From Sebaldella sp. (lineage in GTDB: Bacteria; Fusobacteriota; Fusobacteriia; Fusobacteriales; Leptotrichiaceae), in NCBI GenBank assembly GCA_018058425.1, contig JAGOZX010000002.1:1-64000 (forward strand): 64,000 nt of DNA, written 5' to 3'. Positions 27,509-28,303 of the stretch are shown in pieces. Every line of letters starts with the position of its first letter. Position 1 is the stretch's first letter. The position numbers and the translations under genes are program-made. The notes beneath the pieces are model-generated. The model ran no database searches. It saw only the letters and a list, made by a program, of their open reading frames with translations, and had not been told where the DNA came from.

Positions 27509-27533
27509 ATAAACATCTCCTTAATTTAAAGAT

Positions 27534-27582
27534 AATATTAGTGTACTAATTAAATAATACACTAATATTATTTTTTTGTCAA
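27534..27582 (-). promoter_or_regulatory. Promoter and perfect 12-bp inverted repeat of the gntR operon
   Basis: On the minus strand TTGACA (27577-27582), 17 bases and TATTAT (27554-27559) form a strong promoter. AATATTAGTGTA (27534-27545) and TACACTAATATT (27558-27569) are perfect inverted repeats that cover the spacer and the -10 box. Repressor binding there would block RNA polymerase. Confidence 0.8.
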
Positions 27583-28136: not shown

Positions 28137-28167
28137 TTTTTACCTCCTTTTAAAAATATAATTTTTT

Positions 28168-28260
28168 ATAAAAAAACACCTGATAACCTTATATCGACTA
28201 AAGCCTAACGACATAAAATTCAGATGTTTTTAATATTTTATCCGGCGATAAAATAAAAAC
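28168..28260 (-). promoter_or_regulatory. Riboswitch-like leader with terminator, upstream of gdx
   Basis: In RNA order (minus strand) there is first a hairpin TATTTTATC-GCCG-GATAAAATA (28255-28234). Then comes an intrinsic terminator: AAAAACATCTGA (28231-28220) pairs with TCAGGTGTTTTT (28183-28172), with an inner stem TTATGTCG/CGATATAA and the 12-base loop TTAGGCTTTAGT. The two loops share complementary GCC and GGC, allowing a kissing contact. The arm AAAAAC can also pair with upstream GTTTTT, giving a possible alternative fold. The layout is like reported guanidine-IV riboswitches, but I have not matched a consensus. Confidence 0.55.
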
Positions 28261-28274
28261 TTAATATTCCATAT

Positions 28275-28303
28275 ATGCTATCACAAAAATGAAAGAAAAT
28301 CAA
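28275..28303 (-). promoter_or_regulatory. Promoter of the gdx leader
   Basis: On the minus strand TTGATT (28298-28303), 17 bases, TAGCAT (28275-28280). Transcription would begin just before the first leader hairpin. Confidence 0.55.

Follow-up and report, generated by a model that had tools for sequence, protein, structure and literature searches.

A leader on the minus strand of a 64,000-nucleotide stretch of DNA from Sebaldella sp. (contig JAGOZX010000002.1, positions 1 to 64,000; this whole stretch is called the window) is very probably a guanidine-IV (GGAM-1/mepA) riboswitch. As such, it would serve as a transcriptional ON switch of the Gdx-type SMR exporter gene that follows. The assignment draws on the structure of the leader, its homology to leaders of related exporters, the covariation among these relatives and the gene context. 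By analogy with the class, guanidine would be the ligand and presumably the substrate of the exporter, and its binding would lead to antitermination.

Homology, structure and covariation of the leader

Homologues of the exporter were retrieved from Enterococcus, Pediococcus, Lactobacillus, Paenibacillus, clostridial and some other genomes when 84,980 species genomes were scanned. Many Paenibacillus, clostridial and Anaerolineales homologues carry a guanidine-I sequence in their leaders, one of which (L025) was confirmed by Rfam. The leaders from lactic acid bacteria consist of a short hairpin with an ACCG or GCCG loop, followed by a terminator with AGGTC, AGGCC or AGGCT in its loop. Besides the window, 78 such leaders were collected from 201 Pediococcus-family genomes and other matches, two of them being overlapping views of one Enterococcus locus. 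The set of 87 leaders analysed below includes the window and eight leaders from other Fusobacteriota. Direct DNA comparison with plasmids gave only short, weak matches without meaning.

A covariance model, R1, was built from 44 non-redundant leaders of related exporters, nearly all from a single family of lactic acid bacteria and with the window excluded. R1 has a single match in the window, located at the leader (Table 1). The calibration of its E-value is rough, and a strict descriptor was added as a separate control, consisting of a first hairpin (P1) with an NCCG loop, a second hairpin (P2) with an AGGY loop, complementarity of the loops and a T-run. This descriptor also matches the window once, at the leader, and has no match in 60 simulated windows of 64 kb that were generated to share its trinucleotide statistics. 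Whole-genome scans with R1 score only part of the first-pass candidates; the window site is unreported there and was found by the direct scan of the window.

The leader spans 28260..28170 on the minus strand. It was described in a preliminary description of this DNA as a first hairpin with a GCCG loop and a terminator with a GGC-containing loop of 12 bases about 30 bases before the ribosome binding site, and all these elements are present. The arms of the terminator extend from 28231 to 28172, and the run of seven T residues occupies 28176..28170. Folding predicts 25 pairs and -21.6 kcal/mol for the terminator stem; inside its loop, a weak 3-bp UUA/UAG pairing is the most that could form. The GC-containing part of the stem ends at 28177, with GGAGG about 30 bases and the ATG about 40 bases downstream; 33 bases separate the end of the T-run from the ATG. 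A 123-base stretch with the leader folds with -29 kcal/mol compared with a mean of -16.7 for shuffled sequences (z -4.2), and none of 200 dinucleotide shuffles is as stable.

Covariation of the two stems in relatives, whose absence would have spoken against the preliminary description, is seen in the 44 aligned leaders, where 89.9% of the cells are paired compared with 71.0% after shuffling; displacing the partners by 1 to 3 columns lowers the value to 31.7-51.3%. The covariation score is 0.629 versus 0.264. P1 is paired in 98.2% of the cells, with covariation, the three kissing pairs in 100% and P2 in 81%. The proposed contact between the two loops likewise covaries: at the variable kissing pair, A:U, G:C and G:U all occur among the 44 relatives, and the 87 leaders have A:U in 50, G:C in 27 and G:U in 10 cases without a single mispair, counts that are not independent events as the leaders are related by descent. 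Within a single family, many genomes have the A:U form and many the G:C form, and Fusobacteriota likewise have both. This natural exchange supports the kissing-loop model independently of laboratory mutants.

According to the text of PMC11611296, the kissing loop of the Clostridium botulinum RNA uses A29, C30, G71 and U72; it is weakened by G71C or U72C and restored by A29G combined with U72C, and G77C has a hindering effect as well. At the corresponding four positions the window reads G, C, G and C, which is the exchange made in the double mutant. In the R1 alignment, combined with the numbering in the papers' text, G28204 and G28198 correspond to the required G71 and G77 of C. botulinum and to G66 and G72 of Lactococcus lactis. 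The kissing U (U72 in C. botulinum, U67 in L. lactis) is replaced by C in the window and compensated by a G in loop 1. A G:C pair is present in 27 of the 87 leaders and always compensated; therefore, the pair in the window reads as belonging to a common subtype, and the suggestion in the preliminary description that the leader might represent a variant class is not borne out. Its identification as a guanidine-sensing leader agrees with the match to R1, the presence of the key loop G residues and the Gdx-type SMR gene downstream.

As far as the class is described in the texts of PMC7736828 and PMC11611296, the window shares with it the two hairpins, of which the second is an intrinsic terminator with an AGGN loop that kisses the NCCG loop of the first, a conserved G six bases past the kissing G, and an SMR exporter gene downstream. 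It differs in its G:C instead of A:U kissing pair, in a P1 of 9 bp instead of the usual 5, in very AU-rich stems, and in its location in a branch where the exporter was not found in the other 97 Fusobacteriota genomes (E 1e-12). The Gdx leaders of Lactobacillaceae (L007, L038, L040-L135) have the same motif before exporters that are about 50-64% identical. Their G:C subtype includes L099, L109 and L124, in which the inner P1 sequence TATCGCCGGATA is identical to that of the window. The stems of the Lactobacillaceae leaders are richer in GC, and the linkers differ in length. In Enterococcus (L042/L044), a guanidine-IV leader with the G:C pair precedes two SMR genes in tandem, whose proteins share just about 33% identity with the window exporter.

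Table 1. Features of the leader and the exporter gene in the window.
Feature	Position	Strand	Basis
Possible promoter TTGATT-17-TAGCAT, TG before the -10 element	28303..28275	-	Read from sequence; weak
GTTTT, can lengthen P1 by pairing with AAAAC 28230..28226	28260..28256	-	Folds of short transcripts
P1 hairpin, 9 bp, TATTTTATC-GCCG-GATAAAATA	28255..28234	-	Fold; matches P1 of R1
Match to guanidine-IV model R1	28253..28183	-	27.4 bits, E 8.5e-5, sole match in window
P1 loop GCCG	28246..28243	-	Sequence and fold
GCC of loop 1, 5' side of kissing contact	28246..28244	-	Complementary to GGC 28205..28203
Intrinsic terminator: P2 stem (lower arms AAAAACATCTGA/TCAGGTGTTTTT) and T-run	28231..28170	-	Fold
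P2/terminator loop TTAGGCTTTAGT, 12 bases; kissing GGC 28205..28203, conserved G 28198	28208..28197	-	Alignment to R1
Ribosome binding site GGAGG	28147..28143	-	Read from sequence
SMR exporter, Gdx/SugE type, 106 aa	27816..28136	-	Pfam PF00893, 5.1e-28

Contrary evidence and alternative explanations

Several observations weigh against the assignment. The window has a moderate score of 27.4 bits, compared with the 42-52 bits that six matches reach in other Fusobacteriota genomes. The upper part of the P2 stem is rich in AU, and the predicted fold partly pairs within the loop. The 97% conservation of second-loop positions given in the text of PMC7736828 may include L. lactis U67, which is a C here; this C is accounted for by the compensating G in loop 1. 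Among the SMR genes of Fusobacteriota, none was found with a closely homologous leader. Regarding transcription initiation, the promoter of the preliminary description is present as TTGATT-17-TAGCAT with its TG, but it matches the consensus at just 8 of 12 positions and falls below the threshold of the promoter scan, in which the promoter-like matches of the region are at chance level.

Furthermore, Rfam offers no model that confirms the leader. Rfam 15, whose guanidine models the preliminary description proposed as a check, has no match in the 64-kb window, and relaxed thresholds at the leader returned noise only. For class IV this silence is uninformative because Rfam also misses clear guanidine-IV leaders of relatives: L007 and L038, both plainly carrying the motif, gave no match either, while guanidine-I was detected in L025 as a positive control. 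Rfam 15 seems to be without a working model for guanidine-IV, and pipelines relying on it will overlook such leaders.

An RNA of the Gd4v type, sharing the architecture while binding a ligand other than guanidine, would also have two hairpins, a pseudoknot and a terminator (PMC9788692) and most of the same loop letters, and one kissing position in the second loop of the window does deviate from the best-studied example. This explanation is very unlikely, since the deviation is matched by a change of the pairing base, and the exchanged pair is frequent in leaders of Gdx genes. The text of PMC9788692 attributes to Gd4v RNAs an extra hairpin on the terminator, a residue other than G at position D1, control of transaminases and never of SugE (COG2076), and none of these features is seen in the window as far as that text allows them to be judged: the gene encodes an SMR exporter, the loop has no extra hairpin apart from the possible weak UUA/UAG pairing, and the G residues shown to be required are present. 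Just as improbable is an ordinary terminator or attenuator that happens to have an upstream hairpin and matching loops. The region is AT-rich with many weak hairpins, the terminator would not stand out by itself, and it might act on transcripts reading through from the upstream kinase gene; against this stand the E-value of 8.5e-5 to an independent model, the lack of descriptor matches in the simulated windows, and the expected gene, whose ATG follows shortly after the T-run.

Least credible of all is a guanidine riboswitch of class I, II or III, or one of the SMR-linked motifs GGAM-2 to -6. The same type of exporter has a guanidine-I leader in Paenibacillus and Clostridioides difficile, but Rfam finds no guanidine-I, -II or -III match in the window, nor with relaxed thresholds at the leader, although guanidine-I is recognised in L025, and in its fold and loop sequences the leader agrees with class IV.

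Proposed switching mechanism

As a guanidine-IV riboswitch, the leader would work as follows. Without guanidine, the long hairpin would close fully down to its foot beside P1, and transcription would end before the gene. With guanidine bound, the GCC of the P1 loop would kiss the GGC of the hairpin loop during RNA synthesis. The kissing form would retain P1 but, of the second hairpin, just the upper part; the lower stem could not close, and the polymerase would read through, allowing the exporter to be made. A distance of 2 bases separates the foot of the terminator from that of the 9-bp P1, and because it is so short the two loops could, judged by geometry, not meet unless the lower stem is open. 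The gap is at most 5 bases in 72 of the 87 leaders, as a steric or competition mechanism requires. The presence of the terminator stem inside the aptamer is a puzzle, for which the text of PMC7736828 proposes that the outer pairs are prevented from forming by the rigidity of the ligand-bound RNA; PMC11611296 describes, in its text, a competition between the growth of P2 and the kissing loop.

The alternative pairing of GTTTTT with AAAAAC noted in the preliminary description exists but is weak. It is predicted, as GTTTT with AAAAC, in short transcripts until the terminator nears completion, and gains about 1.2 kcal/mol across a 3-base bulge. This pairing is optional and no general feature of the guanidine-IV class. 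Folding indicates that the 3' strand of P1 overlaps the terminator arm in 33 of the 87 leaders. That the P1 foot acts here as a true antiterminator strand, with guanidine-IV leaders operating in two modes, by strand competition where this overlap exists and by geometry only in the others, is a tentative and rather doubtful proposal. If true, it would partly answer how guanidine-IV RNAs switch despite the terminator stem within the aptamer.

The exporter gene, its origin and guanidine-IV-like RNAs in Fusobacteriota

The closest relatives of the exporter with solved structures are 8vxu and 6wk5 (E about 7e-32), and its best NCBIfam model is SugE, with a score under the curated cut-off. Genes associated with guanidine biology include SugE/Gdx, MATE and PnuC, and the Gdx-type SMR gene of the window fits this context; Gdx-type exporters are named in the text of PMC7736828 as the commonest guanidine-IV target.

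The kinase gene upstream has 73-74% identity to its counterparts in three congeners. In the two congeners read, a response regulator and phoU accompany the kinase, and the sequence after the kinase differs. Since the kinase region is conserved while what follows differs, the contig belongs to the genus, and its exporter and leader are taken as an insertion specific to this lineage, most simply explained by horizontal transfer. The exporter tree goes no further than showing sequences of lactic acid bacteria as the nearest rows to the window exporter; the 'IV' labels of the Paenibacillus entries L026-L035 in this tree are probably false regex matches in coding DNA. The assignment predicts a guanidine-inducible exporter, probably acquired along with its switch, in a Fusobacteriota branch that yielded no other exporter of this kind; the exporter should be made only when toxic guanidine is present.

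Exporters that, at 61-70%, are among those most similar to that of the window occur without a recognisable guanidine-IV or guanidine-I leader on the Enterococcus faecalis plasmid LR962555.1 (L045) and in Enterococcus (L005/L039). Gene and leader therefore do not always travel together. In L004 (1440-1500), the second SMR gene of the genome to which the window belongs, a Qac-like paralogue, has no riboswitch; a long inverted repeat, AAACTATAATAAGCC-N8-GGCTTATTATAGTTT, precedes its start and resembles an operator.

The phylum Fusobacteria is already listed for the guanidine-IV class in the text of PMC7736828. R1 gave strong matches in five other Fusobacteriota genomes, in addition to weaker ones. 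Four matches precede MATE transporters (L138, L139, L140 and L148). In L136 (reverse) and L141, guanidine-IV-like RNAs precede genes for proteins of about 235 aa with a B3/4 domain (PF03483); the domain was assigned by Pfam for the L141 protein, whose RNA match is weak (E 0.019), and the L136 protein looks similar by eye. This family may possibly be linked to guanidine biology. Two further such RNAs (L137 and L142, match at 1501-1571) lie directly before small cysteine-rich DUF6485 (PF20095) proteins, with a Pfam assignment for the L137 protein only and a weak match in L142 (E 0.057). No mention of DUF6485 was found in the literature searched.

Elsewhere in the window, on the minus strand at 27533-27570, a perfect 13-bp inverted repeat, TAATATTAGTGTA-N12-TACACTAATATTA, is located at a strong promoter, TTGACA-17-TATTAT. 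It precedes an operon of a GntR-type regulator and an ABC transporter and looks like the regulator's own operator.
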